Source: Lachnospiraceae bacterium
GTDB taxonomy: Bacteria > Bacillota > Clostridia > Lachnospirales > Lachnospiraceae
Assembly: GCA_017539565.1 (NCBI GenBank)
Contig: JAFYCS010000048.1
Coordinates: 1-64,000 of the forward strand
DNA: 64,000 nt
Reading direction: 5' to 3'
The position numbers and the translations under genes were made by a program. The notes under the pieces are model-generated. The model did no database searches and was not told the DNA's origin. It saw nothing but the letters and a program-made list of their open reading frames with translations. Numbering within the stretch: position 1 is the stretch's first letter; the number at the start of each line of letters is the position of its first letter. Below, one piece after another: positions 3,008 to 42,038 of this stretch.

Positions 3008-3013
3008 TAATAA

Positions 3014-5892: not shown

Positions 5893-5917
5893 GATACTGC
5901 GTGGCGGTATCTTTTTT
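5893..5917 (+). terminator. Attenuator (intrinsic terminator) in the infC leader
   Basis: GATACTGC-GTG-GCGGTATC forms an 8-bp stem with one G-U pair, followed by TTTTTT. It ends 20 bases before the infC ribosome binding site. Firmicute infC operons are known to be attenuated by r-protein L20 binding the leader, and this fits that arrangement; the L20 site itself is not identified. Confidence 0.75.
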
Positions 5918-5950
5918 GTTTTGGTAACCAGGATCAGGGGGTAAAAAACT

Positions 5951-6460: not shown

Positions 6461-6533
6461 GGAAACAGTTGGCTTGATGCAAAACGGATCACAGACCCGT
6501 ATGCACATAGAAGGTAAACAGGAGGAAAAAGAA

Positions 6534-19778: not shown

Positions 19779-19807
19779 TTGACCACAGGTGGCCCGGGTG
19801 CTATAAT
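19779..19807 (+). promoter_or_regulatory. Promoter of the pilus operon
   Basis: TTGACC (19779-19784), exactly 17 bp and TATAAT (19802-19807) lie 54 bp before the first pilin start. No other good promoter is seen until the pilB/pilA region, so about 17 kb may depend on it. Confidence 0.8.
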
Positions 19808-19861
19808 TTAAGGGTTAAAGTAGCGTTTTTTCATATGATTAAGGTGCAAAGGAGTGCGCTT

Positions 19862-20587
19862 ATGGGTGCTGAGACGAGACAGAACAGACGAAACGCTTTA
19901 TACAAAAACGAGAAAGGCTTCACCCTGGTGGAGCTTATTGTCGTGCTTGTGATATTAGCTATTATGGCGGCGATACTGATTCCCCAGCTGCTGGGATGGA
20001 TAGATGAGGCAAAGAATAAGGGTGATGTAATAACAGCCCGTAATACGATAACCGCTACTCAGGCAAAGCTTACCGAACTGTATGCATTTGCGCGTGAAGG
20101 TCAGGCGGCCGGAAAGGACGGGGGAGGCAATAAAAGGAATAAGGCTACAGTTATAAAGGGCAAACAGGGAGATAATGATAACGGTGACTGTGATGTGACA
20201 GGTACTGATTTTGCAAAGTCAATACTTGATACTATCGATGAAGAACCATACGTGCTTATTTTGGGTATGGGAAGAATGGACAAGTATAAAGAGACGGATC
20301 TGAAAAGGGCATTCACCGTATATGTAGCCATGTATATGAAGACGGAGGATTCAAAACCCTTGTTTTTTGACGGGGAGCAGTGGACTACAAAATATCCGGA
20401 GAAGGATAAAAGGGATCCGGATGCAGTGTTTTATCCAACAGAAAATAAAATGAAGAAAAACGATGTATTTATCCAGTATTATATTATCTCCAATAAGACA
20501 GGCAAGGATCATACAAACAGTGATAAGAATAAAAATCTCTGGAATCATCTGCGCAGGCTGAGCGGAAGTAAGTATGCACAATGGTGA
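19862..20587 (+). CDS. Type IV pilin-like protein (class III prepilin signal)
   Basis: ATG 19862 follows CAAAGGAGTGCGCTT; the in-frame ATG at 19835 lacks a site. A basic leader (ETRQNRRNALYKNEKG) ends in Gly, and cleavage before FTLVELIVVLVILAIMAAIL gives the N-methylated Phe and Glu5 of type IV pilins. The hydrophobic helix is followed by an amphipathic helix (AKNKGDVITARNTITATQAK) and a charged C-terminal domain of about 170 residues rich in Lys and Asp. It is the first gene of the pilus operon. Together with the major pilin at 38423 and the one at 24134 it is likely a structural or minor pilin. The 241-residue length is in the normal range. Confidence 0.85.
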   Translation: MGAETRQNRRNALYKNEKGFTLVELIVVLVILAIMAAILIPQLLGWIDEAKNKGDVITARNTITATQAKLTELYAFAREGQAAGKDGGGNKRNKATVIKGKQGDNDNGDCDVTGTDFAKSILDTIDEEPYVLILGMGRMDKYKETDLKRAFTVYVAMYMKTEDSKPLFFDGEQWTTKYPEKDKRDPDAVFYPTENKMKKNDVFIQYYIISNKTGKDHTNSDKNKNLWNHLRRLSGSKYAQW

Positions 20588-20693
20588 TATTTCTGCAGCC
20601 TGACCATACAGACAGCCGGGAAATATGTATAACTTTGTTTTTTATATAAGCAGGAAATTACCGGTCACGGACAGAGTGCAAAGGAGTGCGCTT

Positions 20694-23600
20694 ATGAAAG
20701 AATTGAGACGGAACGGATATAAAGTCATAAGAAAAAATGCAAAAGGCTTCACCCTGGTGGAGCTTATTGTCGTACTCATGATAATCGCTATTCTGGCTGC
20801 GCTGGCATTACCGGCGCTTTTTGGCTTTTTGGATAATGCCCATAAAAAGCAGGTGATCTCCAGGGCACAGACAGCTCTTTCGTCTACTCAGGCAGCTCTT
20901 TCGGATATCTATTCATCAAATGATAATAAGTATGACAGTGATAAGCGTGTCCAGACACGTATAAATGCCGGATCTGAAGAAGGAGATCAGACAGAGTTTA
21001 CAGTATGGTGCGTAGTACCGCTGTATGACGAGCCGGTAGGCGATGAAGAAGCTACGAAGGCTATAGTCAGCGAGATAGGCTCATATACTATCGGCATGGC
21101 GTTGTATAAGGATTATGAAGCGGAATATGCTGCATATAACGGTATCGAATGGGAAGTATTTGACAGCGAAGAAGAAGCGCTTGCTATGTTAAGCCAGGGG
21201 AAGGAAATAGCCGTCAGCAGATCCAAAGAAGATAACAGCGATGTTATCTGTGTCTGGCCCTTTGAAAAAGGTGATGATTACGCTTTGATGGATGACGGCC
21301 CCAGAAAGCCCGATCCGGAAGATGAGGAAGATGATACTCCCGTCATCGTGTGCCAGAAAAAAGTCAGATTCTGGGACAATCCCGATGGCAAGGCATTTTA
21401 TGTTAGTGGGGATGAATCTGATACACCGGCAGATGATCATTATGTAGATCTTATTTTTAATCAGGATGACCGTGGCGTCATTTCCATTGATGATGGGCAG
21501 TGGAACAGTAATTCCAACGAATTCCGTCAAGGTATCACCAGGCTGATACTGAAGCCTTTATATACCTATATTTTCAGATATTGGAAGCTGAAGGACGGTG
21601 ATTTTGCGGCTGCAGACCGGAGTGCTATAGAGAGTTATATATTCAGCAATGAGCCTATGGAATATGAATTCGTTGCCCAGGTTATACGTGATCCTAATCT
21701 GAAAGAAGTGGCTACGCTTAGTAAGCAGCTGTTTAAAGACAGGATCAATAATACTACAAGTGGCATGAGACAGATACCTACTGAAGAGTATACTCTTGAA
21801 GAGGTGAAGAAGAAGAGCGGGGCAAAAAAAGTTGATGACAATGAGACCGATTTTTCAATATATGCCTGGTATAGCGGTAATGAACTTCAGTGGTGGACCG
21901 ATGCGCTGGTTGCATATCTGCCGGCTGATGGCAGCAGCTGGCTGGAAGGTAAGGGATATCTGAATACAGTTGATTTTACGGGCTTTGATGCAGAAAAGCT
22001 TACGACTGCGGAAAGGATGTTTGCAGAATGTAAAAATCTGAAATCCGTGAATTTTGGTAATGACTTCAACGCGATTAACCTTACAAATATGAATGAATGC
22101 TTTGGTTATAATCTGGAAAAACTGGATGACACTAAAAACAATATGGAATATAACTTAAAAACGGTGGATCTCAGTGGTGTTAAGGAAGTCGGCCCTGCAC
22201 TAAGCTTGACAAAGGCATTTATGAACCGCGCCGGTCTTACATCGGTGACTTTCGGAGAGGGCTTTAGATCAACAAAGATAAACGGTAGCCTGGCACATCT
22301 GTTCTATAAAAATGAGGCCCTGAATCAAGTGAATCTTTCGGGATGGAATGTAGGACAGGTTACAAGTCTTGAACATGCTTTTTATAACTGTAAATCGCTT
22401 AAGCTTGTAAATGGCGCATTTGAAGGCTGGGATCTTCAGAATGTCGAAACACTTTTCTATGCGTTTTACGGCTGTGGTGAAAATACACATCATGAATCGG
22501 ATATGCATGAACTAAAGACCGGAGACAAGCTTGCAAATATTGCGGAATGTTTTAAGCTGTCAACATTTACCAGCCTAGATCTGAGAGGATTTAATGTTAC
22601 GAATGTCACAAACATGCGATCCTTTGTTTCAACATGCAGTGAACTTAAGACGCTGAATATGACCGGCTGGCGGCCGACAAAAATGGTCAATATGATGGAA
22701 GCGTTCAGGGACTGCGCCGTGTTAGAGAAAATAGATGTATCTTACTGGAACCTCAGTGATGTGGAGATATTATTCCGTACTTTTTCCGGATGCCACAAGG
22801 CTCAGATAATTACAACGGGATGGGGGGATGAAGAGTACAGACCCAAGAACGGAAAACTCAGATCGGTAATGGATATGTTTAAGGATTGCAACAGTATGAC
22901 CGGGACCGTGGACCTCAGCGGATGGAGTACCACCGGATTAAAGGGGGATTTCTATCTGGAGAATACCGGGGAGTATACTAACACCGGCTGGTATAAGGTT
23001 GATGGTGATATGGCCAATATGTTCAGCGGCTGTTCATCGTTGCAGGGGGTAAGTCTTAATGGCTGGGATATTACAAATGCAAAGAATCTTGGAGGTGTTT
23101 TTACAAACTGCAGTAGCCTGAAAACGCTTGATCTTGGCGGGTTTACAGTCGGCGGAAACTTCACAAATACTTTTTTGAATGGGGTAAAAAGCAGTCTTGA
23201 GACCCTTGTACTGAAGAAAGCAAACTTTGGCGCCATAAGCTCGCTGGCCTCTTTCTTCACCGGCTATCCGATGCTTGAACGTGTAGATATGGATGGATTT
23301 ACAGCTGAAGGTACAACAAATATCTCAAAGATGTTTGCCAGCAATGCCAGACTTAATACCGTGATCATGTCAAATGTTAAACTTGGAACGGCAACCGATG
23401 CCTCGTACATTTTCGGAGAGTGTAAAAATCTTATAGAAGTGGATCTGAGTAATGCTGAATTTACGGCTCTCCAAAATGCGACGGGAATGTTTAATAAGTG
23501 CTATAGTCTAAAGACAGTCAGCTTTGGGGATAAACTGGATCTGGGCAGTGTTACTACAATGAAACTTATGTTCTTTGACTGCATCTCTTTGGAGAATCTT

Positions 23601-24113
23601 GCAGCAGAGAAAATATATACGAGTAACAACTTACAAAGTGTTGAGGATATGTTTAAGGGATGTTTCAGGCTAAAACATGTCTATCTTGATAATATGAATA
23701 CCCATGGAACAAAGATCATGACCGGTATGTTTAATATGGGGGATTGGAATACGACCAAGACGATCGATTTAGGAGACGACCGGGAGATATCAGTTACACC
23801 CCAGATATTTGCGGATGAAAGTGCATTGAAGGAAATACGTCTGGGCCCGGATTTTATGCCGACGAGTGTGACCGATGCAAATAACGTGGGTAGTATGTTC
23901 AAGAGATGTGTGGCTCTGGAGACCATACGTGTATATGACGGGATGGATATAACAACATTAACTAATACACCCAAGAATACCTGTTTTGAAGGTGATACAA
24001 AGCTTAAGGGCGGGGCAGGGACTGTTTTTTCTTCCAATCATACGAACCAGTATTACGGATGCATTGATGGTAAAAACGGTAAGCCGGGATATTTCACGGA
24101 GATAACGCAATAA
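20694..24113 (+). CDS. Giant pilin: prepilin N-terminus fused to DUF285/BspA-type repeats (1139 aa)
   Basis: ATG 20694 has the same 20-odd-base translation start as the first pilin (GTGCAAAGGAGTGCGCTTAT), so the upstream ATG at 20625 is not used. The leader ends NAKG and the mature protein starts FTLVELIVVLMIIAILAALA, a normal pilin helix. After about 390 residues of mixed sequence, about twenty repeats of the form MF.xCxxLKxVxFG...LTNM follow from residue 430 to the end (MFAECKNLKSV, MFKDCNSM, MFSGCSSLQGV, MFNKCYSLKTV, MFKRCVALETI). These are BspA-like leucine-rich repeats of the DUF285 type, surface-adhesin modules in other bacteria. The end GKPGYFTEI is usual for such domains. A tip or minor pilin that displays an adhesin is the inferred role. 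Confidence 0.85.
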   Translation: MKELRRNGYKVIRKNAKGFTLVELIVVLMIIAILAALALPALFGFLDNAHKKQVISRAQTALSSTQAALSDIYSSNDNKYDSDKRVQTRINAGSEEGDQTEFTVWCVVPLYDEPVGDEEATKAIVSEIGSYTIGMALYKDYEAEYAAYNGIEWEVFDSEEEALAMLSQGKEIAVSRSKEDNSDVICVWPFEKGDDYALMDDGPRKPDPEDEEDDTPVIVCQKKVRFWDNPDGKAFYVSGDESDTPADDHYVDLIFNQDDRGVISIDDGQWNSNSNEFRQGITRLILKPLYTYIFRYWKLKDGDFAAADRSAIESYIFSNEPMEYEFVAQVIRDPNLKEVATLSKQLFKDRINNTTSGMRQIPTEEYTLEEVKKKSGAKKVDDNETDFSIYAWYSGNELQWWTDALVAYLPADGSSWLEGKGYLNTVDFTGFDAEKLTTAERMFAECKNLKSVNFGNDFNAINLTNMNECFGYNLEKLDDTKNNMEYNLKTVDLSGVKEVGPALSLTKAFMNRAGLTSVTFGEGFRSTKINGSLAHLFYKNEALNQVNLSGWNVGQVTSLEHAFYNCKSLKLVNGAFEGWDLQNVETLFYAFYGCGENTHHESDMHELKTGDKLANIAECFKLSTFTSLDLRGFNVTNVTNMRSFVSTCSELKTLNMTGWRPTKMVNMMEAFRDCAVLEKIDVSYWNLSDVEILFRTFSGCHKAQIITTGWGDEEYRPKNGKLRSVMDMFKDCNSMTGTVDLSGWSTTGLKGDFYLENTGEYTNTGWYKVDGDMANMFSGCSSLQGVSLNGWDITNAKNLGGVFTNCSSLKTLDLGGFTVGGNFTNTFLNGVKSSLETLVLKKANFGAISSLASFFTGYPMLERVDMDGFTAEGTTNISKMFASNARLNTVIMSNVKLGTATDASYIFGECKNLIEVDLSNAEFTALQNATGMFNKCYSLKTVSFGDKLDLGSVTTMKLMFFDCISLENLAAEKIYTSNNLQSVEDMFKGCFRLKHVYLDNMNTHGTKIMTGMFNMGDWNTTKTIDLGDDREISVTPQIFADESALKEIRLGPDFMPTSVTDANNVGSMFKRCVALETIRVYDGMDITTLTNTPKNTCFEGDTKLKGGAGTVFSSNHTNQYYGCIDGKNGKPGYFTEITQ

Positions 24114-24133
24114 AGCAGCGGGCAGGGATACAG

Positions 24134-24781
24134 ATGAGAACAGATGCGGGTAAAGACAAGAGCATGAGTAATAAAGGCTTCACTCTGGTGGAGCTTGTTG
24201 TGGTACTCGTGATACTTGCTATACTTGCGGCGCTGGTCACACCGGCTCTGCTTGGCTTTATCGATAATGCAAACCGTGAAGAAGAGAAGACACATGCGAA
24301 GGTATTATTAAATGCCGTGCAGTCGAAGCTTTCTTCGCTTTATGATCAGGGGCTGATGCCAAATGTCGATCCTGAAGGGATCGGAGACAAATCCACGGAT
24401 TTTCTCTGGAAGACCGAATGGTCGAATGATGTTATATATAATTCGGGCCTGAAGGAAAAACCGTATATCTGCGGATTTGCATGCGGACAGTTAAGCAGCG
24501 GCGGAAGTTCCAATTACCTGGATCAGGGGCTGGGCGCCCTTAAAAAGGGCTATAAAGTATATGCGTTTTTCTATATGGACAGCAATACCAGTGCTCCTCT
24601 TTTCTATTACGGTGAAGAGTGGAGTGATCAGCCGCCGCAGATAGATGAAGCGGACGGTTCGATTCAGGTTTCGGAAGAAGAATCGGTATTCCTGTCATCC
24701 TGGTATGTGCTTGATGGATGTCAGGGAACGGAAGGTGTAAGTCGTACCTGGGATGTGGTGCTGGCTGCGGTCAGGAACTGA
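24134..24781 (+). CDS. Type IV pilin-like protein
   Basis: The leader MRTDAGKDKSMSNKG is followed by FTLVELVVVLVILAILAALV, giving a class III signal with Glu5, then PALLGFIDNANREEEKTHAK as the amphipathic continuation. The remaining domain (about 150 residues) includes aromatic-rich strands (YKVYAFFYMDSN, APLFYYGEEW) that resemble the C-terminal part of the first and major pilins, where YYDGTTGEWFEG or FFDGEQWTT occurs. So these pilins share a common globular fold. ATG 24164 (MSNKG) is an alternative start. It lies 20 bp after the DUF285 pilin and 15 bp before the GLUG pilin. Confidence 0.83.
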   Translation: MRTDAGKDKSMSNKGFTLVELVVVLVILAILAALVTPALLGFIDNANREEEKTHAKVLLNAVQSKLSSLYDQGLMPNVDPEGIGDKSTDFLWKTEWSNDVIYNSGLKEKPYICGFACGQLSSGGSSNYLDQGLGALKKGYKVYAFFYMDSNTSAPLFYYGEEWSDQPPQIDEADGSIQVSEEESVFLSSWYVLDGCQGTEGVSRTWDVVLAAVRN

Positions 24782-24796
24782 TAAAGAAGGCGTTGT

Positions 24797-27700
24797 ATGA
24801 GAAGATGGCATGAAAAGAGAAAACTGAATAATGCCGGCTTTACTCTGGTAGAGATGATAGTTGTACTGGTCATCCTGGTGATCATGCTTTCTTTAAGTGC
24901 GGTCGGGATCATGGCATGGCAGGACTGGTCAAAAATGAAACAGCTCAATGCCAATGCAGAGACGATCTTTATTGCGGCGCAGACCCAGCTTTCCGATTTC
25001 TCAAGCAGCGGTTCACTGGAAAGCAGGGTTATCGATCAGATAAAGAGCGGAGATGATTATCTTGTAAAGGAGATCACATCAGCAAATATCGGTGATATTA
25101 CAGATCCGGATGGAGTTCCTTATGAATGGGAACAGGTATGGAGTACCGGGGAACATAAGGGTACCATAGTATCTGTATCAAGTAAGCCCGGAGAGTATCA
25201 GGATTTCCTTGAGAACAAGGCACTTGATCCCGGAACCCAATTGCTTTTTGAGCTGATAACAGCTTATGTATATGATAAATCCATATTGAATGATTCAGCC
25301 ATTCTCATAGAGTTTTCGCCTGATGCAGCGCAGGTTTTAGCGGTATGCTATTCCAGATCAGCGGAAAAATTAAGCTATGATCCCGATGAGGCAGGTGCGG
25401 TATGTGTGCTGAAACGTGACGAGACAACCCGTAATGATATCATGCTGGGATATTACGGAGTAAAAACTTTAGCAATGCGTATAGAGGGAAAAACGGATAA
25501 TACGCTTCATATAGGCGCAGGCGATTTCCTGCTGAGAAACGGATCTATCCTGGATGCGGTTTATGTACCCGAAAATGAAGAAGACGTATTCGGAAGCGGC
25601 AAGGATCTTACATTTATATTCTCTGTGTATAATCCGGAGACGGAAGGCAGCAGAAACAGGGTGATGTCGTTTGAATTTGCTGTAAACAGCAGCGATATGC
25701 TTCCGTCGGGAATGAAACAGGCACAGGGAAAGAATGCACGTGTGGCTGATGTAAAATATTACCATCATAATATTCAGGTCGGGGATACAACGCAGTTCCG
25801 TATCCCTGTATGGATAGAGCTTACAGACGAAGGCAGAAGAGCCATAAGGGTTGCGCTTGATGCGGCTGATATACAGGCGCAGTCAATAACCTCTGCTCTT
25901 GCACTGGGGCTGGATACAGGCGATGATGTGAGGGATGTCGACAGGGAAAATGCTAAAGAGGCGTTCCTGAGGACATACAGTTTCTACCGCTTCGGTCTTG
26001 ATGTGGATAAGATATATCTGGGACTGACGATACAGGATAATACCGATCCGTCCAGCGATCCAGATGACGAGATCTATACTGATGAAGAAGGTGTTTATAC
26101 CACTTTCGCTTCGATAAGCCGTAATAACACGGATAAAAAAGCGAACTATGAGATAGCAAACGGCAGGCATCTGTATAATATGCGTTTTGTTGAGGATTAT
26201 GCAGATAAGATCGTGGAGATTACACCGGAAAGTACCGAGCTTATAGGTACTTTGCAGAACAACAGGGATTGGAATACCTGTTATGTTCGCAGCTTTAAGC
26301 TTATACAGGATATCGACTGGCACAGCTTTACCGCATACGGATATATGGGCAGTAATGCGGGAGAAAACAATTTCTTTGATTCGTATGATATGAGCGATCC
26401 TGTGAATTCGGGTATAGGTGTTGCAGGGCTGATAACGGAGACGGAAGAGTTCCCTTCTTTCAGGCAGTTAAACGCCGGTGACAGCTTCAGTGCGGAAAGG
26501 AAGAACGGAAACGGCAGCTTCGGTATTTCCAATCTTACCATTACGACAGATGCAAATGAGTTCTTTGGTGTATACGGATATGGAGCTCAGGATGATAATA
26601 AAAAATTACATACTGATGCACTGGTGTCTGCACGTGCAGAGGGACTGCATCCTACCGGACTGTTTGTTTATAATTTCGGAACAATAAAGAATCTTGTGCT
26701 TGAGAAACATAAGGTGTTCGGAACATATATGACCGGTGGCTTTGTAGGTGAGAATTTCGGTACCATATCGGATCTGGAGCTTAAGAACGAAACGAATACG
26801 GCAGCCATGGATAAAACCGAGGACACTTTTGTAAACAAGATCGTGGCACTTAAGCTGCTCATCCCTGCCCTGGAGGGAAGCGGCGATTCAGGCAATGAGG
26901 ATCAGATCTTAAAAACCTACATAAAAGAACAGCTGTATTCGCGTAATACCAGTTTTGTTGTGGGTATACTTGATGTCGGCGGTATCTGCGGTTATCAGAA
27001 GTATGCCAATACCGGCAGCACTACCGTCAGCTACAATGCGCTTAAGAATGAGGCGCAGGTAGCAGGACAGGCATACCTGGGAGGCATCATAGGACGCAGC
27101 ATTGTTCATTATGAAACTAAGACAGACGGATACACTGTGATCAGTCTGCCGGCAGGGGCACAGCAGAATGAGATGAGATATGTGTCTTTCTGTGATAATG
27201 AGAATTACGGAAGGATACAGGCATTGCCTATATATGATACCGACGGAAATTCTGGAAACGGCAGCGGGCCTGATTACAGGGCAGCGTTCTATATCGGCGG
27301 TATCTGCGGTATGGCTTGTGATAATATTGTAAATGATTCTGATACATATTTAAATATCAGTACTTCCTCTCCGACCGTACTGCTTAAAAATTGCAGAAGT
27401 TACTGGCTGTATACCGATGAGGAGATAGATGCCCTGATAAACGGGAAGAAAGACGGATTCAGTGCATTGCAGTCTGAACTTAGGGGCTCATTTACAGGCT
27501 GTCTGGTCGGTTTTGCCAGAAGAGTAATGTTTGAAAACTGTTCAACCGAGCTTAATGAGGAGAGAGAAAACAACGGTAATCAGTACATTTTCGGAAAGTA
27601 TTACACCGGCGGCTTTGCCGGAGTAATGAGCGTCTGTGCGATAAAGAATGAAGAAGACAGCAAAACCGTTAATGCGGTAAATATTATCGGACGAAATGCA

Positions 27701-30601: not shown

Positions 30602-30618
30602 TAAGAGCGGACAGTGAT

Positions 30619-31272: not shown

Positions 31273-31305
31273 AATGCTGTAAAGCTTTAACGATGGTAGA
31301 GGATT

Positions 31306-31794
31306 ATGAAGGATATCAGCAGGAGAAAAGTTGATAATGCGGGAACAACGCTTATAGAAACACTGGCAGCATTTACCGTGCTGGCAGCTATACTTGCTAT
31401 ACTTTTTCATATAGTTAATTTTTCGGGTACGCTGCGGACACAGGCTGTTGATGCTGCTCATCTGGATCAGATGTTTCAGCGTGAAGTGTGTAAAAATGAC
31501 AGCAGTATCGATACTTCATTTGTGGAGATCACCTATTATTCACGCGAAGGCGGCGAGGCTGAGAATGAATTGGCCTGCGGTTTCTGGATGGTACTGGATA
31601 CGGAAAAGACAGTACTTCAAAAGAACTATCTGGGAGTAAGCTATGACGAAAATGGTATCAAAGACAATCCGCCGCTGTTCCGTATGGATAATCTTGGGAT
31701 CACTGTATATACCTGCAGGGATAACCTGATAGAAGAAGAGAAATTACCCAGACCGGTGATGGTAAGCTATCACTTTAATGCACCTGCACCCTGA
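31306..31794 (+). CDS. Pseudopilin-like minor pilin (PilV/GspI-type N-terminus)
   Basis: The leader MKDISRRKVDNAG is followed by TTLIETLAAFTVLAAILAIL, a prepilin signal with Thr at position 1 and Glu at 5. Minor pseudopilins often have a non-Phe first residue. The 162-residue protein then has a short globular domain (YYSREGGEAENELACGF). ATG 31306 follows GTAGAGGATT. It belongs to the compact minor-pilin cluster (nine bases to the next gene) typical of priming complexes in type IV pilus and type II secretion operons. Confidence 0.72.
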   Translation: MKDISRRKVDNAGTTLIETLAAFTVLAAILAILFHIVNFSGTLRTQAVDAAHLDQMFQREVCKNDSSIDTSFVEITYYSREGGEAENELACGFWMVLDTEKTVLQKNYLGVSYDENGIKDNPPLFRMDNLGITVYTCRDNLIEEEKLPRPVMVSYHFNAPAP

Positions 31795-31803
31795 GGAGAG
31801 TAT

Positions 31804-32544
31804 ATGACGGTTAATAAGCGTAAACAATCGAATAAGGGTTCAACGCTTCTTGAGCTGATAGTATGTTTTGCCCTGCTGGGTATATTTATGAGTGCGGCAG
31901 CAGTGGTCATAACCAATGTTACCAATGTATTCTTTGATGTAAAGGGACAGACATACGGCAGACAGGTTGCCGACATAATCTTAAGCAAGATAACCGGGGA
32001 GATAGAGGGGGCCAAGCTTTCGGCAGAGAGTACTTTTGAACAGCCGATAATATATCAGGATCCGGCAGATGAATTAGCCGGGAACCGCTCCGGATATAAG
32101 ATTGACCTTTATGACAGGACCGATACGCATATACAGATGTATGAAGAGGACGGCGTATTAAAGATAAGATACTTTGAGATCAATCCGCCTAAGGATGGCA
32201 CTGATGATAATTATAAAAACGGCCATATAAACGGAACGGTATGGACTTTTGATGAGGCCGTCTATCAGGGATATACGATCAAATCCCTGAGGTTTGTGCC
32301 TGCAGACCAGGGTGTGGGAGCTGAAACGGCGGACGCTGAAACGATTGAAGGCGCGGCTTACGCTAACGGAACGGTCAGCGGAAACGATTATCCCGGGAAT
32401 GTGATAGGAGTATATCTTACGCTTCAGAGTCCTCAATACGGCGAATTCTATGCATACAGATATGTTAAGATGTATAATATTACCGATACTGAAGCGCAGA
32501 ACTATAAGATACAGCTGCTTACGAGCGAAAACTATGGCGATTAA
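31804..32544 (+). CDS. Pseudopilin-like minor pilin (PilW/GspJ-type N-terminus)
   Basis: The leader NKRKQSNKG precedes STLLELIVCFALLGIFMSAA, again a class III signal with Glu5 and a long hydrophobic helix. A continuing helix (YGRQVADIILSKITGEIEGA) and a beta-rich C-terminal half follow (IQMYEEDGVLKIRYFEI, IGVYLTLQSPQYGEFYAYRY). PilW/GspJ-like subunits have this size (246 residues) and this position beside PilV- and PilX-like proteins. Ribosome binding site GAGGAGAGTAT; spacing to the next gene is 8 bp. Confidence 0.7.
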   Translation: MTVNKRKQSNKGSTLLELIVCFALLGIFMSAAAVVITNVTNVFFDVKGQTYGRQVADIILSKITGEIEGAKLSAESTFEQPIIYQDPADELAGNRSGYKIDLYDRTDTHIQMYEEDGVLKIRYFEINPPKDGTDDNYKNGHINGTVWTFDEAVYQGYTIKSLRFVPADQGVGAETADAETIEGAAYANGTVSGNDYPGNVIGVYLTLQSPQYGEFYAYRYVKMYNITDTEAQNYKIQLLTSENYGD

Positions 32545-32552
32545 GGGTACAC

Positions 32553-32981
32553 ATGGAGAACGAAAAGTCCTATAATAAGAGTACGATAAGGGTGATAAAG
32601 TTCATACTGATAACGGCGGTGGTTGTATTTATACTGCTGGCGGCATTCTTTGTGTTTAAAGTGTATTCCGAAGGACGTTTTGCACTCAGGGAAGCAAAGA
32701 ATGTAAAGCTGGCATTATATACAACAGACATAGAACTGTATCCTGCAGGGAAATGCGTATATGCACCGGAGAGATATGACGGACTTGCAGACGGAGTAAT
32801 AGAAAATGTGGAGAAATATGCAGGAGTCAGTTCGGGTGTTACCATTCTTTCATATGACAGAGAAGAGCGTGAAATTCTGATGTTCACCTACAGTGCGAAC
32901 AACTATCTGGTCAGATATGAATATGACGGGGAAAATGAGCACTGGACGGTGGATTATCTGTGGAGGATACTGGTATATTAA
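32553..32981 (+). CDS. Single-pass membrane protein of the pilus operon
   Basis: A basic N-terminus (SYNKSTIRVIKF) precedes one hydrophobic helix (ILITAVVVFILLAAFFVFKV) and a soluble domain of about 100 residues ending in a Trp/Tyr-rich tail (EHWTVDYLWRILVY). There is no Gly-Phe prepilin cleavage site, so it is not a canonical pilin. Its place between minor pilins and pilC suggests an accessory or assembly function. No family recognised. Confidence 0.6.
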   Translation: MENEKSYNKSTIRVIKFILITAVVVFILLAAFFVFKVYSEGRFALREAKNVKLALYTTDIELYPAGKCVYAPERYDGLADGVIENVEKYAGVSSGVTILSYDREEREILMFTYSANNYLVRYEYDGENEHWTVDYLWRILVY

Positions 32982-33007
32982 GTTGCTGACGGAGGAATGA
33001 GGGGGCA

Positions 33008-34210
33008 ATGGCAGCCTACAGGTATAAGGCAAAGGATGACCAGGGCAAAGTAATATCGGGGATCATGAACGCGGCCAGCGAGCAGGATCTGCACGAGAAG
33101 CTTAAGGCCGAAGGAAGATTCCTTATTGAAGCAAAAGAACAGACAGGAAAGGTCAGGACTAAAAGACTTAAGGCCGACCGCCTGGCTGACTTTTCGCGTA
33201 ATCTGGGAAAGCTTATCAATGCAGGTATCACACTGGTACGTGCTTTAAAGATCATCTCTGAGGATGAGTCTACATCTCCGAAGGAAAGAGAGATATATGC
33301 GGATGTATTGAAGAGTGTCCGTCAGGGTATGCCGCTTTCAGATGCCCTTATGGATCAGGGAGATACTTTCCCCAGCCTGTTTATAAATATGATCCGAAGC
33401 TCGGAAAATGCCGGTAACATGGATAAGGTTGCGGATCAGATGGCAGAGTATTACAGTAAGGAACACCGCCTTAACCAGAAGATAAAAAGCTCAATGACAT
33501 ATCCCAAGATACTGGCGGTGATGATAGTAGCGGTGGTCATCATCATAATGGGCTTTGTTCTGCCGCAGTTTGAAGAACTGTTTGCGCAGATGGAAACACT
33601 TCCGCCTGCCACCAGGATACTGATGGCTATAAGTGATTTCGTAAAGAACCGCTGGTATGTATTGATCTTTTTCGGAGTGGTGGGCTATATGGTACTCAGG
33701 CTTTTCTTCTCCATACCCAAGATAAGGTATCTTCGTGATAAATTCGAGATCCATATGCCGGTAATAGGCAAGCTTCGCAGGATAGTTTATACGGCTAGAT
33801 TTGCAAGGACGTTATCAAGTCTCTATTCTGCGGGTATATCCATATTAAACTGTCTTACCATTGCCAAGACAACCATAGGCAATACATATATAGAATCACA
33901 GTTCGACGAGCTTATAGCCGCCATCAGATCGGGTGAGAATCTCTCCACTGCGATCGATAAGGTGGACGGATTTACAAAGAAGCTTTCTTCTACGGTAATG
34001 GTAGGTGAAGAGACAGGTGCACTTGATTCCATGCTTATCTCTATTGCGGATCAGATGGAGTTTGATTCCGAGATGGCAGTAAGCAAGATGGTAGCAATGC
34101 TCGAGCCTACTATGATAGTGGTTATGGCAGTGATCGTCGGTTTCATTATGATAGCCGTGATCCAGCCTATATACGGATCTTATCAGACTATAGCCAGCTC
34201 AGCGGGCTAA
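33008..34210 (+). CDS. pilC: Type IV pilus inner-membrane platform protein (PilC/GspF)
   Basis: The start YRYKAKDDQGKVISGIMNA is the standard PilC/GspF opening. Two related T2SSF domains follow (about 60-180 and 260-390), with LADFSRNLGKLINAGITLVR and ARFARTLSSLYSAGISIL, each followed by a hydrophobic helix pair; VGEETGALDSML and the closing PIYGSYQTIASSA are also typical. PilC is the membrane platform that couples the PilB ATPase to pilin insertion. The 400-residue length is standard. ATG 33008 follows GAGGGGGCA. One copy is present, as expected for a single pilus machine. Confidence 0.95.
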   Translation: MAAYRYKAKDDQGKVISGIMNAASEQDLHEKLKAEGRFLIEAKEQTGKVRTKRLKADRLADFSRNLGKLINAGITLVRALKIISEDESTSPKEREIYADVLKSVRQGMPLSDALMDQGDTFPSLFINMIRSSENAGNMDKVADQMAEYYSKEHRLNQKIKSSMTYPKILAVMIVAVVIIIMGFVLPQFEELFAQMETLPPATRILMAISDFVKNRWYVLIFFGVVGYMVLRLFFSIPKIRYLRDKFEIHMPVIGKLRRIVYTARFARTLSSLYSAGISILNCLTIAKTTIGNTYIESQFDELIAAIRSGENLSTAIDKVDGFTKKLSSTVMVGEETGALDSMLISIADQMEFDSEMAVSKMVAMLEPTMIVVMAVIVGFIMIAVIQPIYGSYQTIASSAG

Positions 34211-34228
34211 GGGGGAGGAATCTGATAC

Positions 34229-35692
34229 ATGAGCACGGTAATATACATTTCCAACAAACAGATACAGGTGGTGACCGCAAGCGGGAGCGGGCCCAAGGCA
34301 AAGCCTAAGATGGCATATACCATGGCTTCTCCCGAGGGCAGCGTTATCAACGGTATGATCATGGATCCCGATGCGCTGGCACCTTTTATCAAAGGTTTCT
34401 TTGCGCATAACAAGCTGTCTACAAAAGATGTCAGCCTGGTGATCAACAGCTCGAAGATAGCAGGTAAGAGGATAGAACTGCCGCCCATGAGCCATAACAA
34501 GACCATGGATTTTGTGGCTCGTGAGTTCAATGATGTTACCAGGGACGATACAGTGCCTATTTTCGCCTATACGGATCTGGCAGTTGAAAAAGGCAGCAAG
34601 ATAAAGAAGGTATATGCGGAAAGCATTGATTCCGAATTTATAAAAGATTATATAGCGCTGTTTAATGATGCAGGAATAACTCTTAAGGGCATATATTCAA
34701 GCGAAGGCGTAATGATCAGAATGATCGAGCAGAGTGCCGGAAAGCGCTGCAAGAATTTTGTTGTACAGATCGCAGATGATAATATGCTCACCAATGTCCT
34801 CTGGGCTGACGGCAATTTTGTTTATTACTCCGGACAGCGATGCTTTAACGAGCCGGGAACTGAGGAGTATATGGAAGAGTGCGTGCGTGCGCTTTCACAG
34901 CTGACCCAGTTCATGAAGGCTAATCAGATGGAAACCCCCATTCAGAACATTTTTGTAGCGGGCATCAAAGGGCTTGATATAGATGTATACCGTCAGCTGA
35001 CCAGTTCATCACGTATCGATGCTGCAGTTGAATGGTTCGACTGTGGTCTTTCACAGAAAGTAAAACGCCGCTTTGACCTGACTGCGGTACTGCCTGTACT
35101 GGCAGGTCTTTTCGGAGAGGATAAGACCAATAATCTTCTCACAAATTTTAATCTGAAAAAGAAACAGAAGAAGGTGGATGCTTTCTGGAAGAAGAGCATC
35201 ATACTGATAAGCTTGATCTTCATCATAATGCTGGGGATCACCATACTTGTGAATGTTAAGAAGAATCAATTGGAGGAAGAGCTTGACCGGGTTCAGACTT
35301 ATAATGAGAATCCGGCTACGATGATGCAGCTGGCTTTATATGACACGGCGGTTGAGGAGATCAAGGAAGGAAGCGACCGTTATAACAGCTATGTCAATGT
35401 TAAAAATGCGGTTGAGACATTTCCTATCTTTAACGAGAAGATAAGAGAACCGCTGGAACGCTGTGCTGTAGGTTATGCGGAGATCGAGATCACCAGTTTT
35501 GATGCCGTGGCCGGGTCCCTGAGCTTTACCGCTAATTCCGAAAGGGTTCAGGATATCAATAAGTTCATAGCCAGGATACAGGAAGAGAGTATTTTCAGTT
35601 CTGTATCTTATTCGGGATACAGTATTAACGCCAAGGATAATTCCTGGAATATACACGTGACCTGCATTCTTGCAGAGAGCGCGGGAAGGTAG
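34229..35692 (+). CDS. PilM-PilN fusion protein of the pilus assembly complex
   Basis: Residues 1-310 look like the actin-like PilM protein: STVIYISNKQIQVVTASG at the start, VSLVINSSKIAGKRIELPP and FVAREFNDV in the middle, QIADDNMLTNVLWADG later. After a basic linker (NFNLKKKQKKVDAFWKKS) one membrane helix follows (IILISLIFIIMLGITILV), then a periplasm-side-type coiled coil and ferredoxin-like domain as in PilN. PilM and PilN are normally separate proteins joined by the PilN N-terminal peptide; here both are on one chain of 487 residues. It lies between pilC and the PilO-like gene, as expected for the PilMNO alignment complex. Confidence 0.78.
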   Translation: MSTVIYISNKQIQVVTASGSGPKAKPKMAYTMASPEGSVINGMIMDPDALAPFIKGFFAHNKLSTKDVSLVINSSKIAGKRIELPPMSHNKTMDFVAREFNDVTRDDTVPIFAYTDLAVEKGSKIKKVYAESIDSEFIKDYIALFNDAGITLKGIYSSEGVMIRMIEQSAGKRCKNFVVQIADDNMLTNVLWADGNFVYYSGQRCFNEPGTEEYMEECVRALSQLTQFMKANQMETPIQNIFVAGIKGLDIDVYRQLTSSSRIDAAVEWFDCGLSQKVKRRFDLTAVLPVLAGLFGEDKTNNLLTNFNLKKKQKKVDAFWKKSIILISLIFIIMLGITILVNVKKNQLEEELDRVQTYNENPATMMQLALYDTAVEEIKEGSDRYNSYVNVKNAVETFPIFNEKIREPLERCAVGYAEIEITSFDAVAGSLSFTANSERVQDINKFIARIQEESIFSSVSYSGYSINAKDNSWNIHVTCILAESAGR

Positions 35693-36469
35693 GTGACGGA
35701 TATGCAGATGCAGATGACAGAAAGAGACAAAAGACTGATAGTAATGCTGTCTATCATCGTTATAGTCGTTGGCTTTGGCTGGTGGGGCATACGTCCGGCT
35801 ATCAAGAAAAGCAAAGATATGACAAAGGAACTTGAAAAGCAGGAAGCGCAGATGCAGATCACCGATTCCAAGCTTTCCAAGCTGTTCATGTACGAGGTGG
35901 AAGCAGAGGAATATGATGAGAGGATAGCTGTAGAAAAGGTAAACTATTTCCCTATGATGTCTTCAAGCGAAATAGACCGTTACTTTACCAATATGATACT
36001 GGACAGGGGGCTCTCGGCTTACGATCTTACCATAAGGATAGGGGGAAGCCCGGTAAAAGTTGAGCCTTATCAGTATTCTGCATTGGCGCAGATAGTTTCG
36101 GAAGAATCGGAAAAAATGAAAAACAAGAGCAAGGACAGCTCGAAGAAGAATTCCTCAAATAAGGAAGAAGATCCCTTCGAGTATGAAAGCTCTCCCGCAT
36201 TTAATTCCGAGATATACGGAGTTGATATAACCCTTCGTCTGGCCGGAGATATTAAGGATCTTAAGGGGCTGATTGAGGAGATCTCCAGTGCTGAACAGCT
36301 GCTGCTGGTCCGCAACTGCGTATGGTCGGAGCAGGTCTCAAAGGTGAACTATCCTTCCGATGACGAGGAAGGCGGCTATACCCAGACACTCCAGACTACA
36401 ACTGTACTCAATATCAATCTTACTATGTATATGTGTGATCAGACCGAACCTGTTGAAGAGGATGAATAA
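35693..36469 (+). CDS. PilO-like pilus assembly protein
   Basis: A short cytoplasmic head (MTERDKRLIVM) leads into one membrane helix (LSIIVIVVGFGWWGIRPAIK), then a coiled-coil-like stretch (DMTKELEKQEAQMQITDSKL) and a ferredoxin-like domain interrupted by a Lys/Ser-rich disordered insert (KMKNKSKDSSKKNSSNKEED). This order and the length of 258 residues match PilO/GspM. GTG 35693 directly follows the stop of the PilM-PilN gene; ATG 35702 is an alternative start. PilO pairs with the PilN domain to form the membrane scaffold of the pilus. Confidence 0.75.
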   Translation: MTDMQMQMTERDKRLIVMLSIIVIVVGFGWWGIRPAIKKSKDMTKELEKQEAQMQITDSKLSKLFMYEVEAEEYDERIAVEKVNYFPMMSSSEIDRYFTNMILDRGLSAYDLTIRIGGSPVKVEPYQYSALAQIVSEESEKMKNKSKDSSKKNSSNKEEDPFEYESSPAFNSEIYGVDITLRLAGDIKDLKGLIEEISSAEQLLLVRNCVWSEQVSKVNYPSDDEEGGYTQTLQTTTVLNINLTMYMCDQTEPVEEDE

Positions 36470-36473
36470 GTAA

Positions 36474-36534
36474 TGTCATTCTGAGCAGATATAACCGGCA
36501 GCGTGTGTCATTCTGAGCGCAGCGAAGAATCTTA
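36474..36534. repeat. Dispersed hairpin repeat, copy c, inside the pilus operon
   Basis: A partial unit TGTCATTCTGAGC (36474-36486) and a full unit, GTGTCATTCTGAGCGCAGCG then AAGAATCTTA (36505-36534), fill the 80-bp gap between the PilO-like gene and pilB. There is no T-run, so readthrough into pilB is likely. Confidence 0.75.
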
Positions 36535-36549
36535 AATAAGGAGCCAAAT

Positions 36550-38235
36550 ATGGAAGTCAAACGAAACAACGCCATACGAATAGGTGACGTGCTGAAGGAG
36601 TTCGGTTACGTTACGGAGGATCAGATAGGTCAGGCTATTGCCTACCAGAAGGAGAATAAGGGCGTACTGATGGGCGGTGCGCTGATAGCACTGGGCTTTA
36701 TCAATGAGCGCCAGATGCTCGATGCGTTGGGACGAAAGCTGGACCACGAAGTTGTTAATGTGGGCGACCTCAGCGTGGATATAAAGTCTGTTGAACGCAT
36801 CCCCAAGGCCATGGCAGAAAAGTACTGCATGATGCCTTATGCGGAGGATGAACAGGCGCTCTACATGATCGTGAACGATCCTCTTAACTTCTATGGTATA
36901 GAGGATGTCCGCCAGATAACCGGTGCACAGCTGGTCATCAAGCTTTGCGAAAAGGCGCAGCTGGAAAATGCCATTCAGTATTACTATTCGGAAGTAAGCG
37001 CCAGAAAGGCAGCTGATAAGGCGGCAAAAAATTCCAATTTCGTTGAACAGATCGTAGAGGTCAATGTTGAAGACGGCGATGATGATACGCCTATCATCAA
37101 CCTGTTGAACAGCCTTATAATCAGGGCATATAACTCCAACGTATCCGACGTTCATATCGAGCCCTTTGAGAGCCATACCTCGGTACGTATGCGTCTGGAT
37201 GGTGTCATCACCGATATAATGCAGCTGCAGAAGAGTATACATAATTCACTTATAGCCCGTATCAAGATACTGGGCGACCTGGATATCGCTGAGCGTCGTG
37301 TGCCTCAGGACGGTCACTTCCGTACCAGTATTGAAGGTACTAACTTAAATATCCGTGTTTCCGTTATACCTACGGTATTCGGGGAAAAAGCGGTGTTACG
37401 ACTCCTGGCCTCAGCAGCCACCATCGATAATTCGGGAACCTTCGGTATGAAGCAGAAATACTACGAACTTGTATCGAAGATGCTGGATTCGCCCAACGGT
37501 ATCATCTATGTTACCGGACCCACCGGTTCCGGTAAGTCTACAACACTTTATATGATACTTGAGGCGCTTTCAAAGCGTTCGGTTAATATTTCCACCATAG
37601 AGGATCCCGTGGAGAAGAATGTACCGAAGCTTAATCAGATGCAGGTTAATAACGTGGCCGGCCTGACCTTTGAAGTGGGACTGAGAGCTCTGCTGCGACA
37701 GGATCCCGATATCATAATGGTTGGTGAGACACGTGATAACGAGACTGCAGCGATATCCGTACGTGCAGCTATCACCGGTCACCTGGTGCTTTCCACCCTG
37801 CATACCAATGATGCTGCATCTACGGTAGTCCGACTTGTGGATATGGGTATCGAGCCTTTCATGCTTGCCAACTCACTTGTAGGTGTTATCGCCCAGCGTC
37901 TGGTCCGTAAGGTATGTCCTTTATGTTCTACCTGGGGCCCCATGACAGACAGGGAAGCGGATATAGCAGGTAAGATGATACCTCAGGTAAGACATGCCGT
38001 AGGCTGCGCCCAGTGTAATAATACGGGCTATAAAGGACGTATCTCTATTCATGAGATCCTCCCCGTTGATAAGAGAGTGCGCGCGATGATATCGGCTGAG
38101 GCCCAGGCGGAGGAGATCAAGGATTACGCCCGTAATACACTTGGCATGCTCACCCTTAAAGAGAGTGCTCTTGAACTGGTGGAGGAAGGTCTGACAACGG
38201 TAGAAGAGCTGGTCAAGGTGGCATATTACGATTAA
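36550..38235 (+). CDS. pilB: Type IV pilus assembly ATPase PilB/GspE with MshEN-type N-domain
   Basis: The hexameric cytoplasmic ATPase drives pilin polymerisation. Walker A is GPTGSGKSTT (about 323-332), the Asp box IEDPVEKNV and Walker B DPDIIMVGETRD follow, then the His box LSTLHTNDAAST and the zinc tetracysteine CPLC/CAQC (about 457-487). The N-terminus carries RIGDVLKEFGYVTEDQIGQA and then GGALIALGFINERQMLDAL, which fits the RLGxxLxxxG...L...L..Q pattern of c-di-GMP-binding MshEN domains. Length 561 is normal. ATG 36550 follows AAGGAGCCAAAT. No PilT retraction ATPase is present in the window. Confidence 0.95.
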   Translation: MEVKRNNAIRIGDVLKEFGYVTEDQIGQAIAYQKENKGVLMGGALIALGFINERQMLDALGRKLDHEVVNVGDLSVDIKSVERIPKAMAEKYCMMPYAEDEQALYMIVNDPLNFYGIEDVRQITGAQLVIKLCEKAQLENAIQYYYSEVSARKAADKAAKNSNFVEQIVEVNVEDGDDDTPIINLLNSLIIRAYNSNVSDVHIEPFESHTSVRMRLDGVITDIMQLQKSIHNSLIARIKILGDLDIAERRVPQDGHFRTSIEGTNLNIRVSVIPTVFGEKAVLRLLASAATIDNSGTFGMKQKYYELVSKMLDSPNGIIYVTGPTGSGKSTTLYMILEALSKRSVNISTIEDPVEKNVPKLNQMQVNNVAGLTFEVGLRALLRQDPDIIMVGETRDNETAAISVRAAITGHLVLSTLHTNDAASTVVRLVDMGIEPFMLANSLVGVIAQRLVRKVCPLCSTWGPMTDREADIAGKMIPQVRHAVGCAQCNNTGYKGRISIHEILPVDKRVRAMISAEAQAEEIKDYARNTLGMLTLKESALELVEEGLTTVEELVKVAYYD

Positions 38236-38335
38236 CAGGCAGGAGGCAGGAAAAGCCTGAGGTTTACATAATTTTCGGTTTGAACATGCTCCAAAAAAAT
38301 AAAAAAAATTCCTGTAAAAACCTAAAGTAAAGTCG

Positions 38336-38341
38336 TATAAT
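38336..38341 (+). promoter_or_regulatory. Candidate -10 element for the major pilin gene
   Basis: The 187-bp gap between pilB and the pilin gene holds TATAAT at 38336 with only a weak -35 (TGTAAA, 38313-38318, 17-bp spacing). No recognisable c-di-GMP riboswitch is seen there. Confidence 0.4.
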
Positions 38342-38422
38342 GACGATATATAATTCAGATGCGGACGTGACAAGATCGAACGCAGAAAAAAACACTACAA
38401 AGACGATAAGGAGGTCGAACTT

Positions 38423-38935
38423 ATGAAGAAAAGGAATTTAGACAACAAAGGTTTTACTCTTGTAGAGTTGATCGTGGTACTGGTTATCCTGGCTATTCTG
38501 GCTGCTATCCTGGTACCCGCACTGCTGGGCTACATTGATCAGGCTAAGAGCAAGCAGTCTATGATAAATGCAAGAACAGTTTTGACAGCAGCACAGGCTG
38601 AGTTATCAAGTATTTACGGAAGCAAGGCAGAACCCGAGGCTATACAAGTTGGTGGAAATCATAATGCTAACTTCAAGAAGACAGCTGATTTTGATAATTT
38701 AACACCTTCTGTTAATAAGGTCACGATTGCTTGCAAGAAAGATTTTGAGAAGGGGGCATCAGCTAAACCTCGTAACGAACAACATGATGCTTTTACGGTT
38801 GTATATATGGAGTATATAGATGAATCTGTGACATTATACTATGACGGTACGACCGGTGAGTGGTTTGAGGGCGCGGATTCGAAGCCTACTATAGCAAATA
38901 AGGGATCTGAGTTTGTGGTTTATGGTGGTAACTGA
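38423..38935 (+). CDS. Major type IV pilin (PilA/PilE-like)
   Basis: The leader MKKRNLDNKG is short and basic, and the mature protein begins FTLVELIVVLVILAILAAIL with Glu5 and continues VPALLGYIDQAKSKQSMINA, a textbook pilin N-terminus. The compact globular domain (about 110 residues) ends with YYDGTTGEWFEG and FVVYGGN. The gene has the best ribosome binding site of the locus (AAGGAGGTCG), its own upstream gap with a candidate -10 and a strong terminator, so it is probably made in larger amounts than the operon pilins and forms the fibre. At 170 residues it is the smallest pilin with a canonical signal. Confidence 0.88.
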   Translation: MKKRNLDNKGFTLVELIVVLVILAILAAILVPALLGYIDQAKSKQSMINARTVLTAAQAELSSIYGSKAEPEAIQVGGNHNANFKKTADFDNLTPSVNKVTIACKKDFEKGASAKPRNEQHDAFTVVYMEYIDESVTLYYDGTTGEWFEGADSKPTIANKGSEFVVYGGN

Positions 38936-38971
38936 GTCAGTCCATAATAGAATGTGAATAAGTAGAGTTTT

Positions 38972-39000
38972 AAGAGGCAACCAATCGGTTGCCTCTTTTA
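38972..39000 (+). terminator. Terminator of the pilus locus
   Basis: AAGAGGCAACC-AATC-GGTTGCCTCTT (38972-38997) is a perfect 11-bp stem followed by TTATATT. It closes the pilin transcript. Confidence 0.88.
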
Positions 39001-42026: not shown

Positions 42027-42038
42027 CTGCGTCTCCTC

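Follow-up and report, generated by a model that had tools for sequence, protein, structure and literature searches.

The window analysed here, a stretch of 64,000 nucleotides from the genome of a rumen Lachnospiraceae bacterium, carries a type IV pilus assembly operon (positions 19779–38998) with eight pilin-like genes, and two of these encode pilins with giant adhesin-type ectodomains. The occurrence of both in one type IV pilus operon of a monoderm rumen bacterium, put forward in a preliminary description of this DNA, was found to be real and conserved. Judging from gene order, signals, and predicted folds, the operon probably builds a type IVa-like pilus in which the larger modular pilin takes the H place of the tip complex, with the BspA-type pilin as a second adhesin.

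Operon Organization and Assembly Machinery

The features of the operon are compiled in Table 1. Gene set, order, and sizes of the preliminary description were reproduced almost to the residue, as was the closing terminator. For the first pilin (P1) the list of open reading frames gives an alternative start at 19835. The 1139 residues of the BspA-type pilin are counted from the ATG behind AAAGGAG; the listed frame comprises 1162 residues from an ATG further upstream. A single promoter had been claimed, and the top-scoring site indeed heads the operon. However, 46 promoter-like sites were found in the region where 42.4 were expected by chance, and further promoters could lie in the intergenic gaps of 106, 80, and 187 nt inside the operon, so that a single promoter is plausible but not more.

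Table 1. Features of the type IV pilus operon (positions refer to the window).
Feature	Positions	Strand	Evidence
Promoter-like site	19779..19807	+	TTGACC-17-TATAAT, TG before -10; 11/12 matches, top of 46 sites
Pilin P1, 241 aa	19862..20587	+	Class III signal; N_methyl 38 bits (cutoff 21.2); AAAGGAG before ATG 19862
BspA/DUF285 pilin, 1139 aa	20694..24113	+	N_methyl 33.1 bits; DUF285 122.7 bits; AAAGGAG
Pilin P3, 215 aa	24134..24781	+	N_methyl 33.8 bits
Giant pilin, 1934 aa	24797..30601	+	N_methyl 26.1 bits; predicted beta-helix
K-like minor pilin, 224 aa	30598..31272	+	Val at +5, not Glu; position and N-terminus
I-like minor pilin, 162 aa	31306..31794	+	Glu5 present; alignment; N_methyl E 0.064, ComGE E 0.053, both weak
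J-like minor pilin, 246 aa	31804..32544	+	Glu5 present; N_methyl 24.6 bits; alignment
Small single-pass membrane protein, 142 aa	32553..32981	+	One hydrophobic segment
pilC, platform protein	33008..34210	+	T2SSF 183.7 bits; GspF model 329 bits, under its cutoff of 424
PilM-PilN fusion, 487 aa	34229..35692	+	TIGR01175 (pilM) weak; single membrane segment 323-341
pilO-like, 258 aa	35693..36469	+	T2SSM E 3.6e-4, under cutoff; membrane segment 15-33
pilB, extension ATPase	36550..38235	+	T2SSE 413.7 bits; MshEN 46.4 bits; NF053729 44 bits (cutoff 38)
Last pilin, 170 aa, probable major pilin	38423..38935	+	N_methyl 37.2 bits
Intrinsic terminator	38972..38997	+	11-pair stem, T-rich tail; 0.5 expected by chance in the stretch

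The type IVa-like set PilB/PilC/PilM/PilN/PilO was found in one locus, with pilC and pilB recognized strongly and PilM and PilO weakly by profile, in line with the earlier gene assignments. The PilM part of the fusion matched TIGR01175 over residues 5–101 (E 2.9e-6, 26.5 bits; cutoff 133), and a PilN part is suggested by the membrane segment at residues 323–341 and by gene order. PilB has an N-terminus of the c-di-GMP-binding MshEN type. The GspE and GspF models scored highest for PilB and PilC, all under their cutoffs. Neither PilT nor PilD was found among the open reading frames of the operon, and no PilT-like protein was among the matches listed for its contig. A second type IV pilus locus of the genome, on contig C63, has a PilT-like gene beside pilB and a PilM-N-like fusion of 635 aa; A24 peptidase matches were obtained on C63, too, and on C120 and C38.

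Two Pilins With Giant Ectodomains

Both large proteins possess the class III motif with Glu5 ascribed to them in the preliminary description, with N_methyl scores of 33.1 and 26.1 bits (Pfam cutoff 21.2), and each has a single hydrophobic segment. By their sequences, both are modular type IV pilins, combining a class III signal with Gly-1, Glu5, and alpha1 with a domain that is not specific for type IV pili.

The DUF285/BspA-type repeats reported for the 1139-aa pilin were clear. DUF285 (PF03382) scored 122.7 bits (E 8.7e-36; cutoff 25) in six stretches, accompanied by LRR_5 (46.1 bits) and the PARCEL repeat TIGR02167 (62.4 bits). BspA/DUF285 repeats usually occur on lipoproteins or wall proteins. 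Compared to such BspA/DUF285 (PARCEL) surface proteins the repeat type is the same, but here it stands behind a class III pilin signal. Another open frame with DUF285, of 1751 aa, was observed on contig C104 of the same genome.

For the 1934-aa pilin, GLUG-type repeats had been proposed. The predicted fold of its ectodomain, an IgA1-protease-type (GLUG) beta-helix, agrees with this proposal, but the Pfam model GLUG (PF07581) reached 16.3 bits at best, under the curated cutoff of 20.5. Structure prediction was run as two pieces (residues 1–1000 and 930–1934), with the pilin head inside the first. In the resulting layout, with approximate limits, a leader to Gly14 is followed by a predicted alpha1 helix (17–71), an alpha/beta region to about 440, a beta-helix from about 440 to 1770, and a C-terminal domain from about 1775 to 1934. 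By sequence, the first half matched pilin N-termini only among solved structures, covering the first 68 profile positions, and the second half matched none at E 0.1. Glug was above its cutoff in 7 of the 13 outside-genus giants scanned and failed in the other 6; it was absent among the Pfam families listed for 17 genus giants. N_methyl remained under its cutoff in the giants of loci L112, L114, and L115, and among 17 giants PilX_N gave weak matches in 5, the best at E 0.01.

The beta-helix is shared with the M26 IgA1 proteases and with structure 3n6z, presumably a GLUG protein. The peptidase role that this fold might suggest was rejected: the 1934 residues contain no HExxH zinc motif, and the M26 model was not among the Pfam matches listed for the 17 genus giants. 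The N-terminal M26 family, which is not the catalytic one, scored above cutoff in the giants of L104 and L115. No ligand site was found.

Conservation of the Giant Pilins

The giant pilin was found with this system in 21 of the 22 genus genomes carrying it, and in the remaining one the contig ends first. Outside the genus, 23 giant-pilin loci from 15 genera were read, with sizes up to 4121 aa. The BspA-type pilin was detected in 5 genus genomes and in 2 of 298 other genomes of the family sample, and its pairing with a GLUG-type pilin was found again in two other genera. The two giants thus differ in status: the GLUG-type one accompanies the system, while the BspA-type one is accessory, an optional and putatively adhesive second component. 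In a draft genome of 120 contigs such as this one, an assembly or sequencing error could have joined repeat domains to pilins. As separate genomes within the genus (18–55% identity) and other genera (27–30%) show the same fusions, this explanation was rejected and its probability is negligible.

The K-, I-, and J-Like Pilins

Directly behind the giant lies a minor-pilin cluster whose first member lacks Glu5, as recognized from N-termini and gene order. The labels K-, I-, and J-like refer to position and N-terminus. All 22 aligned K-like N-termini, a set gathered by motif, lack Glu5, as do 2 of 22 I-like proteins. Identification of K by family match was unsuccessful: neither T2SSK nor PilX was among 25 Pfam families listed for 22 proteins, and a comparison to PDB sequences yielded nothing below E 0.1. 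The I- and J-like proteins gave pilin-like matches or weak ComGE matches (E 0.053 for the I-like one) at best. In 17 of the 23 loci outside the genus, drawn from 13 genera, the first pilin gene after the giant belongs to the K-like type without Glu5. Exceptions in gene order are subtype B of the genus (K-I-J-giant) and genome G017, where the giant follows the last pilin; in L102 and L107 a K-like gene is absent downstream of the giant. P1 and P3 are two further small pilins, either of them possible as H. The small membrane protein of 142 aa has relatives at the same place in L106, L167, and L169.

Proposed Mechanism and Alternatives

In the mechanism that we propose, priming of the fibre would fall to the K-like (without Glu5), I-like, and J-like pilins, a task of HIJK in other systems, and the 1934-aa pilin would join them in the H place via its ordinary class III N-terminus, presumably after processing. 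The end of the pilus would then be formed by a beta-helix of about 1300 residues, about 20 nm long if scaled from ComZ (380 residues per 60 angstroms), plus the C-terminal domain, and the giant would be to a monoderm what PilC/PilY1 is to diderms. An optional second adhesin may be provided by the BspA/DUF285 pilin, located either at the tip or along the shaft. The fibre would be extended by PilB, whose N-terminus is of the c-di-GMP-binding type, and prepilin peptidase and PilT-like motor might be borrowed from the second type IV pilus locus. Plant fibre, mucin, or other cells are candidate ligands.

Tip display of the giants is the most economical reading. Alternatively, both large pilins might be accessory adhesins that are distributed over the shaft or retained in the membrane, with P1 or P3 as H and the giants as cargo without a part in priming. 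The presence of the ordinary pilins P1 and P3 in the same operon and the optional nature of the BspA-type pilin are in favour of this reading, which we nevertheless regard as unlikely. In the minor-pilin run of subtype B operons, and in what was read of L105, L116, and L172, no small pilin is present besides K, I, and J, yet the giant has been kept. Moreover, shaft subunits with so long a rod would not pack without clashes, an argument made for ComZ (PMC6561018). It is very unlikely that the operon encodes a short pseudopilus or a type II-like secretion machine of a monoderm, in which a piston would push out the giants as surface or secreted effectors. Such a reading would fit the PilM-N fusion, reported in similar form for the T2SS protein PulL, the high-ranking GspE and GspF models, and the operon without pilT. 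However, the second type IV pilus locus also combines a PilM-N-like fusion with a PilT-like gene, a secretin is neither needed nor expected in a monoderm, and several small major-type pilins together with an MshEN-type PilB suit a pilus. It is highly improbable that the giant works mainly as a receptor for DNA and not as an adhesin of the cell surface. The model for such a role is ComZ, a proposed tip minor pilin with a DNA-binding beta-solenoid; however, this solenoid is described as closest to an ice-binding protein (PMC6561018), and the giant matches the IgA1-protease-type helix.

Extending tip display of the giants beyond this genome, we tentatively consider it possible that H has become, across many monoderm Clostridia, an adhesin of giant size that is obligatory. 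A single chain would then complete the priming complex and also bring along a beta-solenoid 20 to 60 nm long, taking on the role of PilY1 in addition to that of H. If true, tips of up to 4100 residues would be explained, as no outer-membrane secretin would set such a limit to tip size.

Comparison to Known Systems

In the preliminary description, pilin-fused adhesins of this size had been called an unusual way to bring BspA and GLUG modules onto a fibre. We take InterPro entry IPR026906 to be LRR_5/BspA and IPR011493 to be GLUG. Pilins with these entries are named in a 2021 survey (PMC8179133), and modular pilins are an established class, so that an unprecedented status was not borne out. If the accessions are those domains, the survey pilins combine a class III signal with the same kinds of modules. 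In its available part, the "most extreme case" of multiple added domains has 860 residues, and neither operon slot nor conservation is treated.

In Streptococcus sanguinis, PilB and PilC are modular minor pilins proposed to form a tip complex with PilA (PMC8179133, PMC9934059). As here, a monoderm type IV pilus includes a pair of large modular minor pilins whose genes lie together, with grafted adhesive modules. There, the modules are vWA and lectin (PilB 50.5 kDa), here BspA LRR and beta-helix, and the chains of 1139 and 1934 aa (relatives to 4121 aa) beside a K/I/J-like set are unlike those of S. sanguinis as reported. ComZ of Thermus thermophilus, a proposed tip minor pilin that binds DNA, resembles the giant in its beta-solenoid (about 380 residues and 60 angstroms, inserted in the pilin sheet) argued to be at the tip (PMC6561018). 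It differs as a DNA receptor of a diderm, whose pilus must pass the PilQ secretin. PilC/PilY1, described as a large adhesin that sits on the HIJK complex of diderm T4aP, is like the proposed giant in being a large tip adhesin on this complex; unlike it, PilC/PilY1 is not a pilin, has a beta-propeller carrier domain, and is stated to be absent from monoderms. Literature searches led to papers on modular pilins and ComZ, but none of the titles, abstracts, and passages covered treats giant pilins of the GLUG or BspA type next to K/I/J. Giant size, recurrent slot, and two-giant cassette look new, while adhesin-bearing pilins as such are known.

A recurrent gene beside a K/I/J-like set offers a concrete candidate for a tip adhesin in rumen and gut Clostridia and bears on how monoderm pili adhere without PilY1. 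Pili have been linked to cellulose attachment in Ruminococcus (PMC6916266, PMC3672088). PilFind, as described, requires fewer than 350 residues in its pilin search (PMC3244431), and pilin finders with such a limit would miss these giant subunits. In the phylum sample of 299 genomes, frames of more than 1000 aa behind the pilin profile were among the matches listed only here and in G063 of the same family, an absence elsewhere that is weak evidence because the profile was built from the genus. An N_methyl census of 38 genomes of the order gave, among the matches listed, such frames in G000 (two), G062, G063, and G066.

Gene Content of the Pilus Operon

The preliminary description of a type IV pilus operon with at least seven pilin-like genes, pilC, a PilM-PilN fusion, a pilO-like gene, pilB and a terminator was borne out. 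Thirteen tightly packed genes were found on the plus strand of the window, with intergenic gaps of -4 to 187 nt. Eight encode pilin-like products; the others encode a small membrane protein, PilC, a PilM-PilN fusion, a PilO-like protein and PilB. The operon was found to contain no gene for PilT or for a prepilin peptidase. The MshEN/c-di-GMP-binding N-terminus of PilB scored above both cut-offs, which suggests that PilB-driven extension may respond to c-di-GMP.

An identical 21-nt element, GTGCAAAGGAGTGCGCTTATG, covers the RBS and start codon of both P1 and the BspA pilin, as if this start region had been duplicated. The single-pass small membrane protein, whose relatives occupy the same place in three loci outside the genus (L106, L167, L169), is possibly a T4P accessory protein. 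Genes for a transglutaminase-core membrane protein and a DUF58 protein adjoin the operon directly downstream in convergent orientation.

Features of the window and of other contigs (C) of the same genome (G000). H/I/J/K letters on C63 were assigned by N-terminus and gene order.
Feature	Contig	Coordinates	Length	Remark
Promoter-like site	window	19779-19807		upstream end of gene run
GTGCAAAGGAGTGCGCTTATG, copy at P1	window	19844-19864	21 nt	
GTGCAAAGGAGTGCGCTTATG, copy at BspA pilin	window	20676-20696	21 nt	
P1	window		241 aa	pilin-like
BspA pilin (DUF285)	window		1139 aa	pilin-like
P3	window		215 aa	pilin-like
Giant pilin (GLUG-type)	window		1934 aa	pilin-like
K-like	window		224 aa	pilin-like
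I-like	window		162 aa	pilin-like
J-like	window		246 aa	pilin-like
Small membrane protein	window	32553-32981		between J-like and pilC
Last pilin	window		170 aa	pilin-like
Terminator	window	38972-38997		11 pairs; downstream end of gene run
Transglutaminase-core and DUF58 proteins	window	39330-43061 (-)	898 and 340 aa	
Second T4P locus	C63	1854-10448 (L062), 2367-6507 (L063)		
PilB	C63		586 aa	
PilT-like ATPase	C63		353 aa	
PilC	C63		403 aa	
PilM-N-like	C63		635 aa	
A24 prepilin peptidase	C63			
H-, I-, J-, K-like	C63		179, 315, 590, 544 aa	pilin-like
Pilin gene	C61	1967-2041	227 aa	open frame
Pilin gene	C77	7046-7120	186 aa	open frame
Pilin gene	C2	7912-7986	258 aa	open frame
DUF285 repeats	C104	1809-4217	1751 aa	open frame

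Conservation of the Giant Pilin

Operon conservation, by which the preliminary description could be checked, was assessed in 35 genomes of the genus (G000-G034). A PilB at least 55% identical to that of the window was found in 22, and in 21 of these 22 a giant pilin accompanied it. Seventeen giants were intact and aligned (1704-2504 aa), all with Glu5. Those of G021 (3619 aa) and G024 (on a contig other than that of its pilB) are also intact, the one of G003 extends past the contig end, and that of G014 is fragmented into two contigs and two frames. In G009 (72% complete) a contig end interrupts the locus upstream of the small gene. G017, with PilB at 40%, has a 2275-aa giant located after the last pilin. 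Two chief gene orders became visible, giant-K-I-J as in the window versus K-I-J-giant in more distant operons, with longer overlapping ORFs masking some I- or J-like genes in the ORF lists (L043-L045, L055, L056).

When a profile built on residues 1-640 of the giants was run against 295 order genomes, with up to 4 candidates scored in each, open frames above 1000 aa were matched in 18 genomes besides G000, the longest with 4121 aa. Drawing on these matches and on the family search described below, we read 23 loci from 15 genera, selected on frame length or profile score irrespective of their neighbours; the loci L118 and L120 extend past contig ends, the frame of L120 measuring 955 aa so far. 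A K-like gene without Glu5 was the next pilin gene in 17 of the 23 (13 genera; L103-L106, L109, L111-L117, L119, L167, L169, L171, L172), after a 94-aa ORF in L116. I- and J-like genes both follow in 13 of these 17 and a J-like gene in L112 and L119; L103 and L104 are truncated. In L108, L110, L118 and L120 either the contig or the stretch read runs out, and no K-like gene was found in the stretches covered of L102 and L107. The pilins of L102 (G136; 4121 aa) and L103 (G214; 4035 aa) stand downstream of pilO and, with that of G024 (4064 aa counted from its earliest start), are the longest intact class III-signal proteins among those read.

A Pfam scan covered 13 of the 23 outside giants. Glug was above cut-off in seven (L109, L111, L112, L114, L115, L116, L171) and not in six (L102, L104, L105, L106, L107, L117). 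Peptidase_M26_N was above its cut-off in L104 and L115. N_methyl was below cut-off in L112, L114 and L115, where Glu5 is nevertheless present. The 2451-aa giant of L107 (G057:C9) showed a weak CBM5/12 match at residues 1877-1918 (21.8 bits, cut-off 26.2). It is the sole indication of a carbohydrate ligand and hints that a pilus subunit may bind chitin or cellulose.

The BspA-Pilin/Giant-Pilin Pair

Within the genus the BspA pilin was found only in the five closest genomes (the window's, G001, G026, G020 and G029; 1139 to at least 1510 aa), its identity in the latter four being based on alignment and not on a Pfam scan. Its N-terminal 429 residues, searched in 299 genomes of the family, recovered two full relatives besides the window's, from two other genera (G439, G476). 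Both directly precede a giant GLUG-like pilin followed by K-I-J-small-pilC-pilMN-pilO-pilB, with a 136-aa ORF before pilC in G476. BspA and giant pilins measure 1692 + 2296 and 2220 + 2065 aa; DUF285 reached 308 and 434 bits, and the GLUG-like partners were called solely from alignment and from the number of repeat motifs (13 and 12). Judged from the sequences, the pair is conserved. PilC (68%) and PilB (61-79%) are highly identical to those of the window, whereas giants (27-28%) and BspA pilins (29-30%) are not; the machine therefore appears to be preserved and the ectodomains to diverge rapidly, a pattern that would be expected for surface-exposed binding parts.

Placement in a Putative Tip Set

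In known T4F, according to the available text of two papers (PMC10191384, PMC9934059), the HIJK pilins serve as primer of the fibre and remain at its tip, K lacking Glu5. The K-, I- and J-like pilins and the giant would form such a set, with the giant as H. In L105, L116 and L172 the stretches read, which extend to contig ends in L105 and L172, hold besides K/I/J-like pilins only the giant and one pilin of ordinary size; by elimination, the giant most likely occupies the H place. In the window, P1 or P3 could alternatively be H, as the operon encodes these small pilins of its own. The K-, I- and J-like labels were not confirmed by any family model, and Glu5 is missing from 2 of 22 I-like proteins. 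The giant's predicted beta-helix of about 1300 residues would span about 20 nm by the ratio of ComZ, the Thermus thermophilus solenoid pilin with 380 residues for 60 angstroms (PMC6561018, available text). Tip location had been considered possible in the preliminary description.

We take IPR026906 to be LRR_5 and IPR011493 to be GLUG. In the available text of the modular-pilin survey both are among the modules named, IPR011493 being placed with the M26 peptidase family, and modular pilins form an established class of more than 1,200 proteins with 264 architectures (PMC8179133). Adhesin modules on pilins are a known principle; the preliminary description had regarded pilin-fused adhesins of this size as unusual. 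From the accessible parts of their reports, two modular pilins were proposed at one tip in S. sanguinis (PMC9934059), resembling the BspA/giant pair, and ComZ, a beta-solenoid pilin, was already argued to be tip-located (PMC6561018). In the published literature as far as available, no description was found of pilins of 1700-4100 residues as recurrent K/I/J neighbours or of a BspA+GLUG pilin pair. Giant size, recurrent adjacency and the pair thus appear to be new, as a variant of the established modular-pilin theme.

Other Pilus Genes of the Genome

The genome (3.37 Mb, 120 contigs, 99.75% complete) encodes a second T4P locus, whose J- and K-like pilins are themselves large, and further pilin genes on three contigs. 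Its five named relatives from a DNA scan are Lachnospiraceae MAGs, with rumen or omasum named for three; one carries a RUG label, which denotes a rumen series. The DUF285 frame on C104 represents a BspA-type protein that does not belong to the pilus operon.
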